Assembly (NCBI GenBank): GCA_001767525.1
Contig: MELF01000026.1
Location: 1-64,000, forward strand
Direction: 5' to 3'
Origin: Acidobacteria bacterium RIFCSPLOWO2_12_FULL_68_19
GTDB lineage: Bacteria > Acidobacteriota > Vicinamibacteria > Vicinamibacterales > UBA2999
DNA length: 64,000 nucleotides
Shown: positions 17,525 to 34,681 of the stretch, piece after piece
How positions within the stretch are numbered: position 1 is the stretch's first letter
How the letters are laid out: each line of letters opens with the position of its first letter
The notes under the pieces: generated by a model
What the model saw: the letters and a program-made list of their open reading frames with translations, nothing else
Databases searched by the model: none
What the model was told of the DNA's origin: nothing
Position numbers and translations under genes: made by a program

Positions 17525-20500
17525 GACCTGTTCTCTCCACGGGTGATGTGCGGCCGGGAACGAGCACACGTACGACCACGTACAGAATCGGGATGAACAC
17601 CACGTTGAGGAACGTGGCGAAGACCATCCCGCCCGCCACGGCGGTGCCAACCGAGTGGCGCGCCTCCTGGCCCGCACCGGTCGCGAAGACCAGCGGCATG
17701 ACGCCCAGAATGAACGTCAGCGACGTCATCAGGATCGGCCGGAGCCTGATGCGCGCGGCGCCGATCGCCGCCTCCACAATCGACAGCCCGCGGCGCCGGA
17801 GCTGCTCCGCGAACTCGACGATGAGAATCGAGTTCTTCGCGGCGAGCGCGATGAGCAGCACGAGCCCGACCTGGCAGTAGAGATCGTTCTGGAGTCCGCG
17901 CATCCACTGGGCCGACAGGGCTCCGAGCACGGCCAGCGGGACCCCGAGCAGAACGATGAAGGGCAACACGAGCGACTCGTACTGTGCCGCCAGGGTCAGG
18001 TACACGAGCAGGATTCCGATGGCAAAGATGGCCGCCGACTGTCCTCCCGCTTCGACCTCTTCGAGCGAGATGCCGGACCACGCGTGCGAGAACCCCTGCG
18101 GCAGCGCTGCCCCCGACAGACGATCCATTTCCGCGATCGCCTGTCCCGAGCTGAACCCGGGCGCGGCCGCGCCGTTGATCGTGGTCGAGCGGAACAGATT
18201 GAAGTGGTTGATGACCTGCGGCGCCGTCGTCTCCCGGACGCGCACGACGGTCGTCAGCGGCACCATCTCGCCGCCGGAGGTGCGCGCGTAGTACTGACCG
18301 AGATCGTCCGGATCGGATCGGTAGTCGCGGGCCGCCTGCACGTAGACGCGGTATGCGCGGTTGTTGAAATCGAAATCGTTCACGTACGCCGATCCGAGGT
18401 AGATCTGCATCGCGCTCGTGATCTCGCTCATCGGCAGGCCGATGCTCTGCGCCTTGTCGCGGTCGATCTCGACCGCCAGCTGCGGGTCGTTGGCGGTGAA
18501 GCCGCTGAACAGCCCCCGGACGGCTTGGGACTGCTGTGCCGCGGCGATGAGCGCCTGTGTGCCGGCGGCGAGCGCCTGGATGTCGCCGCTGCCGGTCTGA
18601 TCGAGCACCTGCATCTGGAATCCACCGAACTCGCCGAGGCCGAAGATCGCCGGCGGTGCGAACGGAATCACCAGGGCGCTCTGAATGCCGAAGAGCTGAC
18701 CCTGGAGCCGCGGCAGCAGCGCCTGGAGGCGGTGCTCGTCCCCCTGCCTCGCGTCGAACGGCCTGAGCAGCGTGAAGATCATGCCGGTGTTCGACGCGCT
18801 GCCGGCGAAGCTGAAGCCGCCCACCGAGAACACCGACTCGACCTCCGGTACCTGCATGAGTATCTTCTCGGCTTCTCCAATCGCGCGGCTCGTGTATTCG
18901 AGCGACGCGCCGGCCGGCGCCTGGACAATCGCCATGAACCAGCCGGGGTCTTCCTCCGGCAGGAACGCCTGGGGCACGCGCGTATAGACCGCGTAGGTCA
19001 GGCCGAGCAGCCCGGCGAACACGACGACCAGCGCCCATCGCCCGCGCATCAGCCCGGCGACCACGCGCACGTACATGTCGGTGCCGCCGCGGATGACCGC
19101 TTCGATCGCGCCGAAGATCAGTCCTTTTCCGTGGTCGCCGTGTCTGAGCAGCAGCGCCGAGAGCGCCGGCGTCAGCGTCAGGGAGTTGAACGCCGAAATC
19201 GCCACGGCGAACGCGATCGTGACGGCGAACTGCTGGTACAGCCGGCCGGTCGTGCCCGGGAAGAACGCCACCGGCACGAAGACGGCTATCACGACGAGCG
19301 AGGTGGCGACCACCGCGCCGAACACTTCGCCCATCGCGTCCGAGGCGGCCTGCCGCGCCGTCTTCTTGTATTCCCGGATGTGCCGCTCGATGTTCTCGAT
19401 CACGACGATCGCATCGTCGACGACGATGCCTGTGGCCAGGATCAGGGCGAAGAGCGTCAGCGTGTTGATCGAGAAGTCGAGCAGGTGCACGAACGCGAAC
19501 GCGCCGACGAGCGACACCGGGATCGTGAGCGCCGGGATCAACGTGGCCCGCCCGCTCTGGAGGAACACGAACAGCACGAGCACGACGAGGACGGCCGCCT
19601 CGACGAGCGTCTTCAGGACCTCCCGGATCGACTCCTGCACCACCGTCGTCGTATCGAAAGCGATCCGGTACTGCAGGCCGGGCGGGAAGGCGCGGCTCAG
19701 ACGCGCCAGCTCCGCGTCGACCCCGGAGCGGACCTCGAGCGCGTTCGCCGTGGGCAGGCCGACGACTGCGAAGCCGAGCGCGTCGATGCCCTGGAAGCGC
19801 AGCGCCGACGCATACGTTTCGGCGCCGAGCTCTGCGGCACCGACGTCGCCGAGACGCACCAGCGAACTGCCGCCCCAGGTCTTGATGATGATGTTCTCGA
19901 ACTCGCGCGGCTCCCGCAGCCGTCCGGCGGCGCGGACGCTCATCTGGTAGGTCTGCCCCGGACGCGCCGGTGAATCGCCCACGCTGCCCGCCGCGACGTT
20001 CACGTTCTGCTCGCGCAGCGCGTTCACGACGTCGCCGGCCGTGAGCTGCCGGGCGGCGAGCCGCAGCGGGTCCAGCCACAGCCGCATCGAGTACTTCCGC
20101 TCGCCGAAAATCATCACGTCGGCCACGCCAGGGACGCGCTTGAGCGCGTCCTTCACGTAGACGTCGAGGTAGTTGGAGATGAACAGCGAGTCGTACTCGC
20201 CGCGTTGCGCGTAGACGCCCGCCGCCATGATGAAGTTGTTCGCCGACTTCTGGACCGTCACGCCCGTCTGCCGCACTTCGGCGGGAAGCCGGCCCATCGC
20301 CTGGTTCACGCGGTTCTGCACGTCCACCGCCGCGATATCGGGATTCCGCGTGATGTCGAACGTCACCGTGACCTGGCTGACCCCGCTGTTCGTGCTCGAG
20401 GAGGACATGTAGAGCATGCCCTCGACGCCGTTGATGGCCTGCTCGAGCGGGGTCGTGACCGCGGTCTCCACCGTCTCGGCGTTGGCGCCGGTGTAGATGG

Positions 20501-20642
20501 CGAGCACCGAGACGGTCGGCGGCGCCACGTCGGGATATTGCGCGATCGGCATCGCCGGAATCGCCAGCGCACCCGCCAGGACGATCACCAGCGAGCAGAC
20601 GGTGGCGAGAATCGGCCGTTTGATGAAGGTGTCGACGAACAC
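17517..20642 (-). CDS. RND multidrug efflux pump, inner-membrane subunit (AcrB/MexB-like)
   Basis: A 1041-residue HAE1-type RND transporter. It opens [18 protein letters not shown]4 carries the proton-relay pair in [17 protein letters not shown] (about residues 400-416), and the later [15 protein letters not shown] holds the relay Lys. The two large periplasmic loops and twelve transmembrane helices are complete. It lies between the adaptor and TolC genes. Substrates cannot be read from the sequence. No TetR-type repressor gene lies next to the operon. Confidence 0.95.
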
Positions 20643-20696
20643 GGCTCGAAGGCTCCGGGGTTCAGGCGCTGGGCTCTCGGCTGCGGAGCGGCCGCT

Positions 20697-21791
20697 TCAC
20701 GACGGCTTGACCGGCGCGCCGTCGCCGAGCTTCTGGACGTTCGAGACGATGACGCGGGCGCCGGGCTCGAGTCCGCCGCGCACGATGTAGTCCTCGCCCA
20801 CGACGGTCGCGATCGTCACCGGCGTCTGCCGCGCGACGAACCCCTGATCGCGCGCCTCGGCGATGAACACGAAGTGCTGGCCGGCGAGCCGGGTCACCGC
20901 CACGATCGGCACCGCCAGCACCGGGTCGTTGCTCCAGACGATGCGCGCCCGCACGTACTGCATCACCCGGATACCGGACGGCATTTGCCGCAACGTGGCC
21001 TTGACGAGCACCGACTGCGTCGCGTCATTCGCGCGCGGAGCGATGAAGCTCACCGGAGTCGAGGCGATGACGGCGCCGTCTGCATCGAGCAGCTCCACCG
21101 TCAGTCCCGCACGGAGGCCGGCGGCACGCTCGAGCGGGACGTTGATGTAGGCCTCGAGTCCCTCGGCCTGGTCGATGGTCGTGATGACCGTCGACGGCGT
21201 CACGCGGTCGCCCTGCCGCACGGGAAGGTCGCCGACGATCCCCGCCGTGGGCGCCGTCACACGGAAGTACTGGAGCTGAATCTGGTTCTCGCGAATGAGC
21301 GACTGGACCGCGGCGAGCTGCGCGTCCGCGTTCTTGTACACCGCGTCGGCCTGATCCAGTTCCGCGCGGCTCACGGCACCCGCTTCATAGAGCTTCTGCA
21401 TGCGCGCGAGCTGCTGCCGCGCAAACGCCAGGTCCGCCTCGCGCGAGGCGCGCTGCGATTCGGCGGCGGCTACGGTCGCTTGCTGCTTGTCAGGGTCGAT
21501 CTGCACGAGCGGACGCCCCGCGCTCACTCGGTCGCCGGCGCGGACGAAGATTTCGCGAATCAGCCCCTCGACCTGCGGTTGCACGGTCGTCGAGCGCAAC
21601 GAGCGGATCGTCGCGACGTACTCGGTCGTCTGCGGCAGCGGGCGTGGCTCGATCGTGACGGTCTGGACCTCTGTCGGCGGAAACGCCCCGGGCGCGTCGG
21701 CGCCGTCGGACGCCGCCTGTCCCTCGCCGCCGCTGCACGCGGCACAGGTGGTGGAGATGACGAGCAGCGCAAGCGTCAAGAATCGCGACAT
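20697..21791 (-). CDS. RND efflux periplasmic adaptor (AcrA/MexA-like)
   Basis: A 364-residue membrane-fusion protein and probable lipoprotein (Cys in a TTCAAC box near residue 19). Order: beta-barrel strand, lipoyl half (VQPQVEGLIREIFVRAGDRVSAG), alpha-helical hairpin (about residues 95-160, QRASREADLAFARQQLARM), second lipoyl half (TAPTAGIVGDLPVRQGDRV) and a membrane-proximal domain. First gene of the efflux operon. The 54-nt gap before the pump gene looks like degraded repeat sequence. Confidence 0.93.
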   Translation of the reverse strand: MSRFLTLALLVISTTCAACSGGEGQAASDGADAPGAFPPTEVQTVTIEPRPLPQTTEYVATIRSLRSTTVQPQVEGLIREIFVRAGDRVSAGRPLVQIDPDKQQATVAAAESQRASREADLAFARQQLARMQKLYEAGAVSRAELDQADAVYKNADAQLAAVQSLIRENQIQLQYFRVTAPTAGIVGDLPVRQGDRVTPSTVITTIDQAEGLEAYINVPLERAAGLRAGLTVELLDADGAVIASTPVSFIAPRANDATQSVLVKATLRQMPSGIRVMQYVRARIVWSNDPVLAVPIVAVTRLAGQHFVFIAEARDQGFVARQTPVTIATVVGEDYIVRGGLEPGARVIVSNVQKLGDGAPVKPS

Positions 21792-22059
21792 GGGTACCCG
21801 GATAATGGTACTTGATACATGCCGCGCCTCGCACGGGTTTCACGACGGCGGCGCTTCGGGACGCGCGTTCGGACAGTCGCCGTCATCCGGTGACCGAGCA
21901 CGCTCGAGAGCCCGGGGACTGCGCGCGGTGCGAGCGGCCTGAAGGGGCCTCAATGGAGCGAAGGCCCACTCCGTCGGCCGCCGCGACCACACCGGTCGCC
22001 AGGGGACCGGGCGCGCACATCGGAGAGGCGCACGGTTCGATGGTATAAACGATGTGGCT
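21792..22059. other. Divergent intergenic region, efflux operon / PD40 gene
   Basis: This 268-nt region separates two divergent units. Near the adaptor gene it reads GGATAATGGTACTTGATAC; on the minus strand this offers ATTATC-like -10 material 9-14 nt before the adaptor ATG. At the other end TATAAA (22044-22049) lies 10 nt before the PD40 ATG. The GC-rich middle holds no gene that I can support. Confidence 0.45.
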
Positions 22060-23181
22060 ATGACGAGCCTCGTCCAGGGAGCCTTGGCCGCAGCCGTGCT
22101 CGGCAGTGCGGCGGCCGGCACGCAAGCGCCCGTCACGAGCGGCGTCGAGCGGGAGAGCGATGTCCTGTCGCGCGTGCGTCGGCTGACCATCGAGGGGCGG
22201 CGGGCGGGGGAAGGCTACTGGTCGCCCGATGGCCAACGCCTCGTCTTCCAGAGCGAGCGCGAGCCGGGCAACCCCTTCTACCAGATCTACGCGCTCGACC
22301 TGGCGTCGGGCGACACGGTGCGAATCTCGCCCGGCTACGGGAAGACGACATGCTCGTTCTTCCGACCTGGCAGCGACCAGATCCTGTTCGCTTCCACCCA
22401 TCACGATCCGCGTTCGAAAACGCTGCAGCAGGAGGAGACCGAGTTCCGCGCTTCCGGCAAGGAACGGCGCTACGCGTGGGATTACGACCCCGAGTTCGAG
22501 ATCTATGCGTTCTCGGAGAAGTCCGGCCAGTACACGCGGCTGACTCGCGCTCGCGGGTACGACGCCGAAGGAAGCTATTCCCCCGATGGACAGTGGATCG
22601 TCTTTTCGTCGACCCGCGACGCCTACAGCCGGGCGTTGACGCCGGCCGAGCAGCTGCAGCTCGAGGTCGACCCGAGCTATTTCGCCGAGATCTACCTCAT
22701 GCGCGCCGACGGCTCGGATGAGCGGCGGCTCACCCGCGTCCCGGGGTACGACGGCGGTCCGTTCTTCTCGCCAGACGGCACGCGGGTCGTCTGGCGGCGC
22801 TTCGACGAGAAGGGGCTGATTGCCGACGTCTGGACGATGGAGCTGGATGGATCGGACGCGCGGCAGGTCACCGACTTCGGTGCGATGAGCTGGGCGCCCT
22901 TCATCCATCCATCCGGCGAGTACCTGTTGTTCGCGTCCAACAAGCTCGGATTCGAGAATTTCGAACTGTTCATGGTCGACGTCGAGGGGCGCAAGGAGCC
23001 GGTCCGGATCACCTACTCGGACGGCTTCGACGGCCTGCCCGTGCCGTCCCCTGACGGACGACGAATTGCCTGGACGTCGAGTCGCGGCGGCGGGCGGGAA
23101 GGACAGATCTTCCTCGCCGACTGGAACCACGAGCGCGCCCTGGCCGCGCTGCGCGCCGCGCCGGGGGTCAGACCCCGGTGA
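22060..23181 (+). CDS. Exported PD40/TolB-like beta-propeller protein
   Basis: A 373-residue protein with a short signal peptide (ALAAAVLGSAAAGTQA) and at least five PD40 blades: YWSPDGQRLVF, SYSPDGQWIVF, FFSPDGTRVVW, FIHPSGEYLLF and PSPDGRRIAWTSSR. The fold is a protein-binding propeller. In related bacteria such propellers are often next to or fused with M28 peptidases, and an M28 gene follows 35 nt downstream. An alternative GTG start lies at 22054. The last codons (GVRPR) and the stop are supplied by a GGGGTCAGACCCC repeat. Confidence 0.85.
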   Translation: MTSLVQGALAAAVLGSAAAGTQAPVTSGVERESDVLSRVRRLTIEGRRAGEGYWSPDGQRLVFQSEREPGNPFYQIYALDLASGDTVRISPGYGKTTCSFFRPGSDQILFASTHHDPRSKTLQQEETEFRASGKERRYAWDYDPEFEIYAFSEKSGQYTRLTRARGYDAEGSYSPDGQWIVFSSTRDAYSRALTPAEQLQLEVDPSYFAEIYLMRADGSDERRLTRVPGYDGGPFFSPDGTRVVWRRFDEKGLIADVWTMELDGSDARQVTDFGAMSWAPFIHPSGEYLLFASNKLGFENFELFMVDVEGRKEPVRITYSDGFDGLPVPSPDGRRIAWTSSRGGGREGQIFLADWNHERALAALRAAPGVRPR

Positions 23182-23205
23182 CGACCCGTTCCGGGGTCTG
23201 ACCCC
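23164..23205. repeat. Paired GGGGTCAGACCCC / GGGGTCTGACCCC element
   Basis: A near-palindromic 13-mer at 23164-23176 and its exact reverse complement at 23193-23205, each followed by GGT(G/C)AC. Together they can fold into one long stem or two small ones. The element bridges the end of the PD40 gene and the gap to the M28 gene, and the PD40 stop codon lies inside it. Confidence 0.8.
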
Positions 23206-23216
23206 GGTCACGAGAT

Positions 23217-25025
23217 ATGAGACAAGGGACGACTCGTGCGTTCGTCGGCGCGCTCCTCCTCATCAGCGCCGCGCCGTCGCTCGCGCAGACCGCCGCCGGA
23301 TCGCGCACGCGAGCGCACGTGGAGTTCCTCGCCTCCGACCAGCTCGAGGGACGCGAGGCCGGCTCGTCCGGCGAGCGCCTTGCGGCCGACTATCTGGCAA
23401 CGCAGCTGACGCGTATGGGCGCGCGGCCACTCCCTGGCCGGACCGACATGTTCCTCCCGTTCGAGTTCACCGCGGGCAGCCGCGACGGCGGATCGCGGCT
23501 GACGATCGCGGGCAGGACGTTCACCGCTCGAACCGAGGTCCAGGCGCTCTCCTTCTCCGACGATGCCGACGTGACGGGGCCGGCGGTCTTCGCCGGGTAC
23601 GGGCTCGTGGTGCCCGAGTCTCAGAACGTCGCCTACGACAGCTATGCGACGCTCGATGTCACCGACAAGATCGTCGTCGTTCTTCGCTACTTCCCGGAGG
23701 ATGCCGACGAGAAGACCCGGGCGATCCTCGCGCGCTACTCGGATCTGCGGTACAAGGCGATGGCGGCGCGCCAGCGCGGCGCCCGGGCGCTGCTCGTGGT
23801 GACCGGGCCGCGGTCGCCCAACGCCGGTCAGGTCGTGCCCATGACGTTCGACACGGCGCTGGCCGGCTCCGGAATCCCGGCAGCCAGCGTCAGCGGCGCC
23901 GTCGCGGATGCGCTCTTCGCGTCCGGCAAGCCGCTTCGCGACGCACAGCAGGAACTCGACTCGGGCAATCCACACATGGCGGGCTTCGCCTTGTCTGGCG
24001 TGACCATCACGCTGCGAACCTCCGTCGTCCGGGAGCGCCACACCGCCCGAAACGTGGTGGCGTACCTCCCCGCCACCGCCCCCGTGTCCGCGGCGTCGAA
24101 ACCCTGGATCGTCGTCGGAGCCCACTACGACCACCTGGGTCGCGGCGACAGGGGAAACTCGCTCGCCTCCAAGGAAGAGGCCGGCGGTATCCACTACGGC
24201 GCCGACGACAACGCCTCGGGAACAGCCGCCGTGCTGGCGATCGCCGGCACGCTCGCCGAATCGCCCCAGCCGCGACGCCGGCACCTGCTCGTCGCCTTCT
24301 GGTCCGCCGAGGAAATCGGCCTCATCGGCTCGAACGCGTTCGCCACGAAGCCGCCGGTCCCGGCGGATCAGATCGCCGCCTATTTCAACTTCGACATGGT
24401 CGGACGGATGCAGAACAACCGGCTCGTGGTACAGGCGACCGGCACGAGTCCGGCGTGGGCGCGCCTGCTCGAACGGGTCAACGTCGCCGCCGGATTCGAC
24501 CTGGTGACGCAGGCCGACCCGTACCAGCCGACCGATGTCACCAACTTCCACGCTGCCGGTATCGCGAGCCTCGCTTTCTTCACCGGGTCGCATTCCGACT
24601 ACCACAAGCCGTCGGACACGGCGACGAAGATCAACTATGAAGACCTGGATCGAGTCGTCGCGATGGCGGCGACGCTGGTCCGCGCGGTGGGCAACGGCGA
24701 TGAGCCGCCGGTGTTCACCAAGGTCGACCAGCCGGCCACACGCGGCACGATCGCCGGCGTCCGCGTGACGACCGGCACGATTCCCGACTACGCCACCGAA
24801 GTGAAGGGGCTGCTGCTCGCGGGCGTGGTGGCCGGCGGGCCCGCCGACCAGGCGGGCCTGACGAAGGGCGACGTCATCGTCGAGATAGCCGACAAGACGA
24901 TCGCCAACATCTACGACTACACGTACGCCCTCGAACTGCTGCGCGCGAACCAGCCGGTCAGGGTCGTCTACACCCGGAACGGCGAGCGCCGGGACACCGA
25001 GCTGACCCCGATCGCGCGGCAGTAG
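23217..25025 (+). CDS. Exported M28 aminopeptidase with PA and PDZ domains
   Basis: A 602-residue zinc aminopeptidase. Signal peptide about residues 1-22. A PA domain interrupts the early part (about residues 115-240, AGYGLVVPESQNV then GARALLVVTG). The two-zinc M28 core has its ligands in GAHYDHLGRG (about residue 302), YGADDNASGTA, WSAEEIGLIG, FNFDMVGR and GSHSDYHKPSD. A C-terminal PDZ domain (about residues 515-590, GLLLAGVVAGGPADQAGLTK) probably controls substrate access. All metal ligands appear intact, so it should be active in the periplasm. It follows the propeller gene and probably works with it. Confidence 0.93.
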   Translation: MRQGTTRAFVGALLLISAAPSLAQTAAGSRTRAHVEFLASDQLEGREAGSSGERLAADYLATQLTRMGARPLPGRTDMFLPFEFTAGSRDGGSRLTIAGRTFTARTEVQALSFSDDADVTGPAVFAGYGLVVPESQNVAYDSYATLDVTDKIVVVLRYFPEDADEKTRAILARYSDLRYKAMAARQRGARALLVVTGPRSPNAGQVVPMTFDTALAGSGIPAASVSGAVADALFASGKPLRDAQQELDSGNPHMAGFALSGVTITLRTSVVRERHTARNVVAYLPATAPVSAASKPWIVVGAHYDHLGRGDRGNSLASKEEAGGIHYGADDNASGTAAVLAIAGTLAESPQPRRRHLLVAFWSAEEIGLIGSNAFATKPPVPADQIAAYFNFDMVGRMQNNRLVVQATGTSPAWARLLERVNVAAGFDLVTQADPYQPTDVTNFHAAGIASLAFFTGSHSDYHKPSDTATKINYEDLDRVVAMAATLVRAVGNGDEPPVFTKVDQPATRGTIAGVRVTTGTIPDYATEVKGLLLAGVVAGGPADQAGLTKGDVIVEIADKTIANIYDYTYALELLRANQPVRVVYTRNGERRDTELTPIARQ

Positions 25026-25028
25026 CCC

Positions 25029-25787
25029 CTAGCCGTCGCGGCGCTCCTCGGCGACCAGGTCCTCCGCCTTCTCTTTGAGCGTCTCGGCCTCCACGTGCAC
25101 CGCCACCGGACCCTGCATGCGCGCGTTGAGGAACGAGGCGATGAAGATCAGGACGATCAGGAGGAGCGAGAACCACTGGGGAATCTCGACGCCGATGAGC
25201 CGGACCGCATGCGCGTAGTCGAGCCCCAGCTTGATGCCGATCCACGCGATGATGATGAATGCCCCGTCCACGAGCGCCGGATAGCGCTCCACCAGCACGA
25301 TCAGCTGACCGACCACGAGTCGCAGCGCGACAATCCCGAGAATCCCGCCCGTCAGCACGACCCACAACTTCGGTGACATCGCCACCGCCACGAGGATCGA
25401 GTCGATCGAAAACGCCAGATTGACGAGCTCCACGCGCACGACCGTGGCCCAGAACGCCGGCAACCCGAGCCACGGCGTCGCCTTCGGCGGCGACCGCCGG
25501 TCCGCTCCTTCCTTGCCGCCCCAGAAGTGGGAGTAGGTCAGATAGAGAAGGTAGAGCCCGCCAACGAGCTTCACCCAGGTGACCCGGATCAGATAGGCGG
25601 CAAGCAGCGTGGCCGCGATCCGGAAGACGAATCCGCCGAGCAGTCCGTACCGCAGCGCCTGATGATGCTGACGCCGGGGAAGCCCCAGCACCATGATCGC
25701 CATGACCAGCGCGTTGTCGGCACTGAGGAGCCCCTCGAGGGCGATGAGGGCGGCAATGGTAACGAAATCGGCGGCTTGGAGGTCCAA
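25029..25787 (-). CDS. TerC-family membrane protein
   Basis: A 252-residue protein with about seven hydrophobic helices and the two acidic TerC motifs, LEGLLSADNALVMA near the N-terminus and NLAFSIDSILVAVAM in the middle. TerC-family proteins such as Alx and YkoY are implicated in manganese export and metal loading of secreted proteins. The start is uncertain. GTG at 25832 gives 15 more residues but overlaps the hspR operator; TTG at 25787 starts just before the first helix and has TAGGAT 10 nt upstream. I prefer the latter. Only 3 nt separate its stop from that of the M28 gene. Confidence 0.85.
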   Translation of the reverse strand: MDLQAADFVTIAALIALEGLLSADNALVMAIMVLGLPRRQHHQALRYGLLGGFVFRIAATLLAAYLIRVTWVKLVGGLYLLYLTYSHFWGGKEGADRRSPPKATPWLGLPAFWATVVRVELVNLAFSIDSILVAVAMSPKLWVVLTGGILGIVALRLVVGQLIVLVERYPALVDGAFIIIAWIGIKLGLDYAHAVRLIGVEIPQWFSLLLIVLIFIASFLNARMQGPVAVHVEAETLKEKAEDLVAEERRDG

Positions 25788-25822
25788 GGACTCTTCAATC
25801 CTATCGCGGCCGCGCTGCGAAC

Positions 25823-25852
25823 ATTGACACACATCGTATCAAGGCCTACACT
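25823..25852 (+). promoter_or_regulatory. hspR promoter with HAIR-like operator
   Basis: -35 TTGACA (25824-25829), 17-bp spacer, -10 TACACT (25847-25852): near-consensus. Over the -35 lies ATTGACA-N7-TATCAAG (25823-25843). It matches the TTGA-N11-TCAA core and spacing of the HspR operator (HAIR, CTTGAGT-N7-ACTCAAG). A second GTATCAAGG at 25859-25867 repeats the right half 22 bp further on. Autorepression of the operon is the natural reading. Confidence 0.6.
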
Positions 25853-25854
25853 CG

Positions 25855-26205
25855 ATGGGTATCAAGGTGCAGCAGGAGATCTACTTCATCAGCATGGCGG
25901 CGGAGATGCTGGGGATGCATCCCCAGACGCTCCGGAAGTACGAGCGCCTCGGCCTGATTCAGCCGTCGCGTACCATCGGCAGTATGCGCGTCTACTCGCG
26001 GGAGGAGCTCGCGCGGCTGCGGCTCATCAAGCACCTGGTGGACGAGGTCGGCATCAATCTGGCGGGCGTGCAGCGGCTGCTGTCGATCGTGGAGGTGGTG
26101 CAGCGCATCCGGCCGCTGATGGACGACCACGCGCTCAACACGGGGACGGGGCGGCGGCAGCTGCTCAACGAGATGCGGCGATTGAACGAAGTGCTGGGAC
26201 TGTAG
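25855..26205 (+). CDS. hspR: HspR-type MerR-family heat-shock repressor
   Basis: A 116-residue MerR-fold regulator. YFISMAAEMLGMHPQTLRKYERLGL (residues 10-34, the winged helix-turn-helix) and later GINLAGVQRLL are the HspR hallmarks that separate it from metal-responsive MerR proteins. It lacks sensor cysteines. HspR represses chaperone genes and is released on heat stress, in Actinobacteria with help from DnaK. Here it leads cbpA-clpB-ftsH. ATG at 25855 lies just 2 nt after the -10, so the real start could be GTG at 25867, which would drop four residues before the fold. Confidence 0.9.
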   Translation: MGIKVQQEIYFISMAAEMLGMHPQTLRKYERLGLIQPSRTIGSMRVYSREELARLRLIKHLVDEVGINLAGVQRLLSIVEVVQRIRPLMDDHALNTGTGRRQLLNEMRRLNEVLGL

Positions 26206-27201
26206 ATGGAATTCAAGGACTACTACGCGACGCTCGGCGTCTCCAAGGCTGCCACCGAAAAGGAAGTCAAGCAGACGTACCGGAAGCTCGCCCGCAAGTA
26301 CCACCCGGACGTGAACCCGGGCGACAAGCAGGCGGAGCAGCGGTTCAAGGAGATCAACGAGGCATACGAGGTCCTTGGCGATCCCGCCACGCGGAAGAAG
26401 TACGACGAGCTGGGCGAGAACTGGCGGCTCTACGAGCAGGCCGAGGCGCAGGGCGCGCCGAATCCGTTCGCCGGCTGGACGGTCAACGCGGGCGGCCCGC
26501 GGGGCGGCGGCTTCCGGACGATGACGCAGGAGGAGATGGAGGAGCTGTTCGGCGAAGCGGCGCCGTTCTCCGACTTCTTCACGACGTTCTTCGGCGGGGG
26601 CGGCGCCGGCGATGCGCGCCGCGGCGCGCGCGGACGAGGCCGGCAGCGTTCGGGACGCGACATCGAACACGAAATCGAGTTGACCCTGGAGGATGCCTAT
26701 CACGGCACGACACGCCGGCTCTCGCTCAAGCACGATGGCCACGCCCGGACCGTGGACGTGCGGATTCCCGCCGGCGTGGGGGACGGTTCGCGCGTTCGCG
26801 TCGCCGGCGAAGGCGAGCACGGCACCGGTGGTGCGGCGGCGGGAGATCTGTACTTGCGCATCCGGCTGGCGCCGCACACCGAATTCGAGCGCAAGGGGCG
26901 CGACCTCTACGTCAAGGTGGGGGTCCCGGTGCCAACGGCGGTGCTCGGCGGCGAAGCGGAGGTTCGGACGCTGACGGGGCGGCCGGTGCGGCTGCGAATC
27001 CCGCCGCTCACCCAAAACGGCCAGGTGTTTCGATTGAAGGGGTACGGCATGCCAGGGGTGGGACGACCGGACGAGAAGGGAGACTTGTACGCGCGCATCG
27101 AGGCGCAGATGCCGACGCAGTTGACGCCGGCCGAGCGCGAACACTACGAGGCGCTCGCACGATTGCAGGGAGAGGCGGTCAAGACGCACTCGGCCGCATG
27201 A
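26206..27201 (+). CDS. cbpA: DnaJ-class co-chaperone without zinc fingers (CbpA-like)
   Basis: A 331-residue type II J-protein: J domain (residues 1-70, with HPD in KYHPDVNPGDK), a glycine/phenylalanine-rich linker (about residues 85-150, FFGGGGAGDARRG) and two C-terminal beta-domains (GRDIEHEIELTLEDAYHGTT onward). There are no CxxCxGxG repeats, so it is not canonical DnaJ. It stimulates a DnaK-type ATPase and passes clients to ClpB. ATG directly follows the hspR stop, so the two are coupled. dnaK and grpE are not in the window. Confidence 0.92.
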   Translation: MEFKDYYATLGVSKAATEKEVKQTYRKLARKYHPDVNPGDKQAEQRFKEINEAYEVLGDPATRKKYDELGENWRLYEQAEAQGAPNPFAGWTVNAGGPRGGGFRTMTQEEMEELFGEAAPFSDFFTTFFGGGGAGDARRGARGRGRQRSGRDIEHEIELTLEDAYHGTTRRLSLKHDGHARTVDVRIPAGVGDGSRVRVAGEGEHGTGGAAAGDLYLRIRLAPHTEFERKGRDLYVKVGVPVPTAVLGGEAEVRTLTGRPVRLRIPPLTQNGQVFRLKGYGMPGVGRPDEKGDLYARIEAQMPTQLTPAEREHYEALARLQGEAVKTHSAA

Positions 27202-27204
27202 GCC

Positions 27205-29799
<2,595 letters not shown>

Positions 29800-29800
29800 A

Positions 29801-29850
29801 CCGGGTCCGCTGGGACCCGGCTCTGCGGCGGGTCCGAAAGGACCCGCCGC
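29801..29850. repeat. Two tandem GGGTCC-GGACCC hairpins between clpB and ftsH
   Basis: Hairpin 1: CCGGGTCC (29801-29808), loop GCTG, GGACCCGG (29813-29820). Hairpin 2: an 11-bp perfect stem GCGGCGGGTCC/GGACCCGCCGC (29825-29835 and 29840-29850) capped by a GAAA tetraloop. They nearly fill the 62-nt gap. They could slow RNA decay, attenuate ftsH or simply be a mobile repeat; related hairpins lie at 42623 and 45401. Confidence 0.75.
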
Positions 29851-29861
29851 TGGTAGTAGGA

Positions 29862-31781
<1,920 letters not shown>

Positions 31782-31940
31782 ACCATCCCGCCTGCGCCGT
31801 GGCGCGCGAGGCGGCGCCGCTCGGGAGACTGCCGCGGTCCCCGATCGAGCGAACTCGGTGGTCGTTCGCTGGCCGGCGAGATCGGATTGCGGCGATGACC
31901 GCTGCGCCCGTCTTCGTGCTCAGCGAGCTCGGCCGCCGAT
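31782..31940. other. Gap between convergent ftsH and ilvD
   Basis: This 159-nt GC-rich sequence holds no gene that I can support. A weak run of plus-strand frame continues past ftsH but has no recognisable content. No strong terminator hairpin is visible. Confidence 0.4.
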
Positions 31941-33605
<1,665 letters not shown>

Positions 33606-33661
33606 GGACGTTGTCGGCGCCGCCGATCGATGCACCACCACTCGCGGCGAACGGAGGTCTG

Positions 33662-34681
33662 TTAGACGGACGCCGGCGCGGGAAGCTTCACCGGGTCGAG
33701 GAACGGCATCATGTCGCGAAGCTTCGAGCCGACGATCTCGATCGGATGGTTCCGGTCGCGCTCGCGCATCGCCTTGAAGTTCGGACACCCGGCCTCGTTC
33801 TCGGCAATCCACTGCTTCGCGAAGTCGCCCTGCTGGATCTCTTTCAGGATCTGGCGCATGGTCGCCTTCGTCTCGGCGGTGATGATGCGGGCGCCGGCGA
33901 CATAATCGCCGTATTCAGCGGTGTCGCTCACCGAGTACCGCATGTAGTTGAGGCCCCCGCGATACATCAGGTCGACGATGAGCTTCAGCTCGTGCAGGCA
34001 CTCGAAGTACGCGATCTCCGGCTGATAGCCGGCCTGGATGAGCGTCTCGAACCCGGCCTTGACGAGCGCCGCCGTCCCGCCGCAGAGCACCGCCTGCTCC
34101 CCGAACAGGTCCGTTTCGGTTTCCTCGGCAAACGTCGTCTCGATCACCCCGGCGCGGGTGCACCCGATCCCGCGCCCGTACGAGAGCGCCAGCGCCCGGC
34201 CCGTGCCCGTCACGTCCTGGTGGACGGCCAGCAGGCCAGGCGTCCCGCCGCCCTCGACGAACACCTCCCGGACCCGATGCCCCGGCGCCTTCGGCGCAAT
34301 CATCGTCACGTCGATGTCCTTCGGCGGAACGATCCAGTTGAAGCGGACGGCGAACCCGTGGGCGAACATCAGCATCTTGCCGGGGGTGAGATGCGCCTTG
34401 ATCTCGGCCGTGTACACCTTGGCCTGGTGCTGGTCGGGTACCAGGATCATGACGACGTCCGCCCACTTGGCGGCATCGGCGATGCTCAGGACGGTCAGCC
34501 CGGCGGCGCGCGCCTTTTCGACCGACCTGCTCGTCGACGGCAGCCCCACGACCACGTCGACCGCGCTGTCCTTGAGGTTCAGCGCGTGCGCGTGTCCCTG
34601 GGATCCGTAGCCGATGACCGCCACCTTCTTCCTGCGGATCAACTGAATGTCCGCGTCCTTGTCGTAGAACATCGTCGCCAT
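33662..34681 (-). CDS. ilvC: Ketol-acid reductoisomerase
   Basis: A 339-residue class I (short) enzyme that isomerises and reduces acetolactate or acetohydroxybutyrate. The N-terminal Rossmann loop is [15 protein letters not shown]; the metal and substrate residues lie in [41 protein letters not shown] and ERDRNHPIE in the C-terminal knotted domain. It has a proper ribosome site (AGGAG) unlike the first gene of the operon. Third gene of the ilv unit. Confidence 0.97.

Follow-up and report, generated by a model that had tools for sequence, protein, structure and literature searches.

The question raised by this locus is whether the dyad lying on the -35 box of an hspR-like gene is the operator of the repressor encoded immediately downstream, and how far such a circuit corresponds to the HspR/HAIR system of Actinobacteria. 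In the 64-kb window (the whole stretch of DNA that was analysed, from a genome of the Vicinamibacterales, Acidobacteriota) positions 25820-25869 read AACA-TTGACACACATCGTATCAA-GGCC-TACACT-CGATGGGTATCAAG-GTG, and the pattern TTGA-N11-TCAA has a single match, at 25824-25842 (expected 0.12; 11 of 100 shuffles hold one). This segment, TTGACACACATCGTATCAA (25824..25842, plus strand), is the primary predicted operator of the repressor and is referred to as O1; it was assigned on its agreement with the consensus TTGAYACG-N3-CGTATCAA, its conservation and its absence where the repressor gene is absent. The first six bases of its left arm are also a perfect -35 box, TTGACA (25824..25829, plus strand), which together with the -10 box TACACT 17 bp further 3' (25847..25852, plus strand) makes a near-consensus promoter. 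A transcription start is predicted at 25859 (plus strand), 7 nt past the -10 box, from column conservation, the G at this position (offset 35 of O1) having a frequency of 0.81. The original prediction, in which TTGA-N11-TCAA coincides with the -35 box and covers a near-consensus promoter ahead of hspR, was right in coordinates and reading except for one spacing.

The gene, hspR1 (25867..26205, plus strand), encodes an HspR-family MerR-type repressor. Its start was set at the GTG at 25867, which is conserved in near relatives; the mechanically predicted open reading frame starts at an ATG at 25855, which these relatives do not keep and which was rejected as the start. The predicted hspR1 leader in the window is only ~8 nt long, and at six other loci (L091, L098, L100, L104, L106 and L114) the GTG coincides with the predicted transcription start (+35 of O1), which suggests a leaderless hspR1 mRNA in this group. 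On the plus strand hspR1 is followed by a dnaJ/cbpA-like co-chaperone gene (26206..27201) and by the gene for the ClpB disaggregase (27205..29799; TIGR03346 above cut-off). The ftsH protease gene (29862..31781, plus strand) begins 62 bp past clpB and is possibly part of the same operon. Scored with the HspR equivalog model NF047375, which was by far the best-matching model each time, the window protein reached 104.7 bits (cut-off 105), other HspR1 proteins 101.1-108.1 bits and the paralogue HspR2 106.6 bits. By sequence and by operon logic (dnaJ 3' of hspR1 in 74 of 76 loci, clpB present in 67 of 68, the operator in the operon promoter in 74 of 80) HspR1 is assigned to the HspR family, borderline on the curated cut-off. 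Upstream, a TerC/YkoY-family membrane protein is encoded divergently (25029..25832, minus strand; true start uncertain). This family is named after riboswitch control; at the gathering threshold no Rfam riboswitch was found near the gene within window positions 20000-34000.

Genome-wide, bare TTGA-N11-TCAA occurs 12 times, as it does in the reversed control (12), and this count was dropped as genome-wide evidence; since the bare core is no commoner than in the control, the case for O1 is made by its position and its conservation. With a weight matrix derived from other loci, O1 of the window scored 29.6 bits, the runner-up in the window being the tandem copy at 25847 with 6.0 bits. A lack of conservation upstream of hspR orthologues had been proposed as the observation that would speak against the site; instead, of the 80 hspR1 orthologues for which 100 bp or more of upstream sequence was available, 74 keep TTGA-N11-TCAA, compared with a mean of 0.125 and a maximum of 1 in dinucleotide shuffles. 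The consensus of the aligned hspR1 loci is TTGAYACG-N3-CGTATCAA, where the aligned sequences are not independent because the sites are orthologous.

Fifty-nine relatives were searched, and with HspR1 called at E < 1e-30 the protein was present in 47 and absent from 12. The site TTGAYACGNNNCGTRTCAA with at most one mismatch was found in 39 of the 59 genomes, nearly always as a single copy just 5' of hspR1, and the reversed control gave 0. All 39 are among the 47 genomes having HspR1, with 0 among the 12 lacking it (Fisher p = 1.1e-7), where the hspR1 loci and the genomes overlap in part and are kin, such that the counts do not correspond to independent events. The DNA 5' of dnaJ-clpB was read in six of the HspR1-less genomes: the chaperone genes remain, and hspR1 and the operator are both gone. 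The contrast extends to the level of genus or family (G033 versus G002, G025 and G029; G039 versus G051; G053 versus G042). The joint absence of site and gene constitutes the strongest evidence in the sequence data that the site would be read by HspR1. Eight HspR1-containing genomes have no site within one mismatch, and those whose upstream regions were read keep degenerate versions. As a separate observation, the clpB match of G038 (L217), a genome also without hspR1, contains a single in-frame TGA, which may reflect an error of assembly or a disrupted gene.

A wider HspR1 regulon was considered and rejected: in its own genome a site with at most one mismatch is present at hspR1 only. Five TTGAYACGNNNCGTRTCAA-type sites in relatives lie away from hspR1, three belonging to a repeat dispersed in G014 and two falling in coding sequence (G036 and G042), inside aminotransferase-like and aspartokinase-like reading frames, and these were likewise rejected as regulon members. 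The G014 element (L268, L269 and L270; G014:C2, C24 and C82) is an inverted repeat in dispersed copies, bounded by GGGGTCAGACCCC, that carries the near-match ATGACACGGGGCGTATCAA to the HspR1 operator; situated in or near coding sequence, it has the appearance of a repeat element and not of a regulatory site. We also note that hspR1 loci of clear Vicinamibacterales type are present on contigs titled Acidimicrobiia, Bifidobacterium breve, Cyanobacteria and Dehalococcoidia (L049, L067, L085, L086, L094, L104 and L115), and these bins therefore look mislabelled or contaminated.

Among 247 sampled genomes of the phylum, good matches to HspR1 were found only inside the order Vicinamibacterales; some MerR/HspR-like match is present in 232 of the 247, mostly scoring like the HspR2 kind. 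A 59-row tree groups HspR1 as one clade (95/94), apart from HspR2, other acidobacterial HspR proteins and three actinobacterial proteins; the alignment has only 95 columns, the deeper order is unsure and the tree fits duplication or transfer alike. As far as sampled, the HspR1 clade thus appears confined to Vicinamibacterales. With residues numbered from the GTG at 25867, and helix and wing placed by alignment to MerR-family structures (e.g. GlnR 4r4e), the presumed recognition helix has K24 in 81 of 81 HspR1 proteins versus L in HspR2, and the presumed wing has S39 (79/81) and M40 (77/81) versus N-T in 41 of 41 HspR2 proteins. The C-terminal end also separates the two: a tail motif of the A-L-V type, common to HspR2 (40 of 41), ten of ten HspR loci elsewhere in the phylum and the Nocardia protein, was seen in only two of 81 HspR1 proteins. 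DnaK acts as a co-repressor in mycobacteria (PMC10415612), and the DnaK dependence of mycobacterial HspR has been attributed to its hydrophobic C-terminal tail (Bandyopadhyay 2012, as cited in PMC10415612). Because this tail is lost, HspR1 probably senses stress by a route other than DnaK.

The second HspR-like gene, 40-50% identical, is present in nearly all 59 genomes, and in the studied genome hspR2 is the last gene of a dnaK-dnaJ-hspR2 operon. This operon (L169:2261-5873, minus strand) has the actinobacterial gene order, with grpE not seen between dnaK and dnaJ. Its promoter reads TTGACTGCATCACACTCAG-GTTT-GATAAT, with a 17-bp spacer, and carries a HAIR-like site, TTGACT-N7-ACTCAG, the left arm of which is the -35 box. 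At 26 of 34 dnaK upstream regions TTGA-N11-TCA is found, with the CTCA right arm invariant as in HAIR, and at the other 8 the site is missing or degenerate. HspR2 is the likely reader of this site, because several HspR1-less genomes keep it (L191, L196, L206 and L210). Under the HspR1 weight matrix the median score is 29.4 bits for its own sites versus -7.3 for the dnaK sites, and the hspR1 and dnaK types are, on these scores, separable as two operator classes. A Nocardia control record has two HAIR-type sites near hspR, with inner bases of the GY/RCTC type. A genome-wide regulon of the ACTCA type was not retained, and since this pattern is not above its control genome-wide, the claim is limited to the dnaK site. 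The expectation that the same circuit would act on dnaK was not borne out: HspR2 and a HAIR-like ACTCA site belong to the dnaK operon itself, and the CGTATCAA operator is essentially found only at hspR1.

One could nevertheless read these data as a single HspR regulon, in which HspR1 and HspR2 each bind both operators and the differences in the inner bases are tolerated. TTGA-N11-TCA and the promoter geometry are common to both operators, the recognition helices of both proteins share HPQTLR.YE, and H. pylori HspR accepts HAIR-like sites that are only poorly conserved (PMC6102357). Nevertheless, we consider a shared regulon unlikely, though not negligible. The inner bases are conserved separately in each operator class, each clade has its own fixed residues in the recognition helix and the wing, and the CGTATCAA site is missing precisely from the genomes that lack HspR1, though HspR2 stays. 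In the hspR1 operator, which has the HAIR skeleton TTGA-N11-TCAA and lacks the HAIR inner bases TTGAGY...ACTCAA, the commonest base in each inner arm column (YACG/CGTA) has a frequency of 0.81-0.96. The outer bases had been described as relaxed relative to HAIR; this part of the original prediction is to be revised, as the inner bases hold tightly to a pattern other than that of HAIR (CG-TA/CA versus GY/AC). Judged from these columns, the O1 class is not a relaxed HAIR site but one in which the inner bases are specified, unlike TTGAGY-N7-ACTCAA.

The conservation could also be that of a strong sigma-70-type promoter only (TTGACA-17-TATACT), the TCAA arm being incidental. Indeed, the left arm coincides exactly with the -35 box and 70 of 74 loci keep a -10 box at a constant distance of 17 bp; the information per column is, however, 1.2-2.0 bits in the arms, 0.01-0.18 in the central N3 and mostly < 0.3 in the flanks and further upstream, and spacer positions 11-18 (CGTATCAA), of which the promoter has no need, hold 1.5-2.0 bits, are conserved like the -35 box and make a dyad with the -35 arm. 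Moreover, 56 loci have TTGACA as the left arm, which serves the -35 box, and 12 have TTGATA, a poorer -35 and a better palindrome, and the site vanishes with hspR1 while dnaJ-clpB stay. Taken together, a promoter without an operator is very improbable. Hardly credible is that the dyad is bound by a different activator of the MerR type or serves the TerC-family gene on the opposite strand: promoter dyads are used by MerR-family activators and 53 of 73 loci have TerC as their divergent gene, but the site is kept more widely (74 of 80) than this neighbour, two HspR1-less and site-less loci (L214 and L215) keep a TerC-like sequence 5' of dnaJ (by reading alone), and MerR activation, which uses a 19-bp promoter spacer, is disfavoured because the spacer here is 17 bp.

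Returning to O1 as the operator of HspR1, the promoter carries a further copy of the dyad. A second right half-site had been predicted 22 bp downstream; it is present, although not isolated, since it forms the right arm of a degenerate full operator (O2, TACACTCG-ATG-GGTATCAA; 25847..25865, plus strand), and the spacing is 23 bp, as the two TATCAAG copies begin at 25837 and 25860. O2 lies 23 bp 3' of O1 with the same 19-bp geometry and covers the -10 box and the predicted start. When the operator matrix was run at offsets 5 to 25 in each of the 74 promoters, a single similarity peak was obtained, at +23, with a full-site score of -7.7 compared with -28 to -65 at the other offsets. The right arm of O2 at +23 had a mean of -2.4 versus -22.8 for the null (null maximum -19.1); in the window it matches at 7 of 8 positions, and nothing in the window except O1 scores higher than O2. 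The left arm coincides with the -10 box, and the independent evidence for O2 is therefore mainly the right arm and a conserved G (offset 30, before N3); since the right arm covers the predicted transcription start, selection may alternatively have acted on the early transcript. On the dnaK promoters there was no peak at offset 23 indicating an O2-like second copy.

An HspR-family autoregulatory operator on the -35 box of hspR, with the skeleton and spacing of HAIR, is accordingly supported by the comparisons made here, and with high probability O1 is a true binding site through which the repressor HspR1 would shut off its own hspR-dnaJ-clpB operon. From the operator, the promoter geometry, the conservation, the joint absence, the paralogues and the loss of the tail, as read in the sequences, we infer binding, repression, cooperativity and sensing as follows. 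An HspR1 dimer would read the dyad TTGAYACG-N3-CGTATCAA of O1, covering the -35 box and the spacer, and its occupancy would block RNA polymerase at the promoter of hspR1 itself and thus of dnaJ-clpB too. The weaker O2 probably takes a second dimer over the -10 box and the start, completing repression. Upon heat shock or accumulation of unfolded protein HspR1 would be released and the operon derepressed; candidates for the input are the thermal stability of the repressor itself and its titration by DnaJ or ClpB, which the operon also encodes. In parallel, HspR2 would control dnaK through TTGACT-N7-ACTCAG, and since it appears to do so via a HAIR-like site, the genome would hold two paralogous HspR circuits with one skeleton and different inner bases. 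That O1 is the primary operator of HspR1 and O2 a secondary one, with a parallel HspR2/dnaK circuit in the same genome, we put at a probability of roughly 0.88. To a broader scenario we would give even odds, i.e. that one order evolved a second, insulated HspR circuit by re-specifying the inner bases through few helix and wing changes, dropping the DnaK-sensing tail and closing its own promoter with two tandem operators coinciding with the -35 and -10 boxes. If true, disaggregation by ClpB would be regulated independently of DnaK availability. For Vicinamibacterales the two circuits predict separate control of ClpB and DnaK by different stress inputs, whereas a single HspR usually governs both in Actinobacteria.

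The literature searched contained nothing on HspR regulation in Acidobacteria. As cases in Helicobacter, Campylobacter and Deinococcus have been published, the occurrence of HspR/HAIR outside Actinobacteria, a part of the original prediction, is not new; the new part would be a diverged HspR paralogue with an operator code of its own and a two-site promoter. As such it would represent a clean natural case of a repressor family splitting its DNA code between paralogues, where skeleton and geometry are the same and the inner bases differ, with few fixed protein changes and a repeated joint absence of repressor and operator. The system resembles the HspR/HAIR circuits of Streptomyces and Mycobacterium in having a MerR-family repressor, the TTGA-N11-TCAA skeleton, and control of clpB and of its own operon, and the dnaK-dnaJ-hspR2 operon of the studied genome with its ACTCA arm matches them closely. 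It differs in that hspR1 sits with dnaJ-clpB and not with dnaK, in the inner bases of the operator (YACG/CGTA versus GY/AC; the Streptomyces HAIR is TTGAGYN7ACTCAA, PMC2687793) and, compared with Mycobacterium, in lacking the C-terminal tail linked to DnaK dependence. HspR of Helicobacter pylori and Campylobacter jejuni, like HspR1, occurs outside Actinobacteria; a CIRCE-like site was not found in the studied genome, where TTAGCACTC-N9-GAGTGCTAA (HrcA/CIRCE) gave 0 matches at up to 3 mismatches. The cbpA operon of H. pylori includes hspR, whose own promoter is overlapped by a HAIR-like site; further dimers have been proposed to occupy the DNA flanking it (PMC6102357), which sets a precedent for one central site plus additional dimers. 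There the HAIR-like sites are poorly conserved and the flanking determinants undefined, whereas O2 is a definable copy 23 bp away. Finally, HspR of Deinococcus radiodurans (DR0934), also non-actinobacterial, controls clpB, ftsH and dnaK (as cited in PMC2687793 and PMC6888292) and is one global regulator, in contrast to the two paralogues described here, with an HspR1 operator present essentially once per genome.
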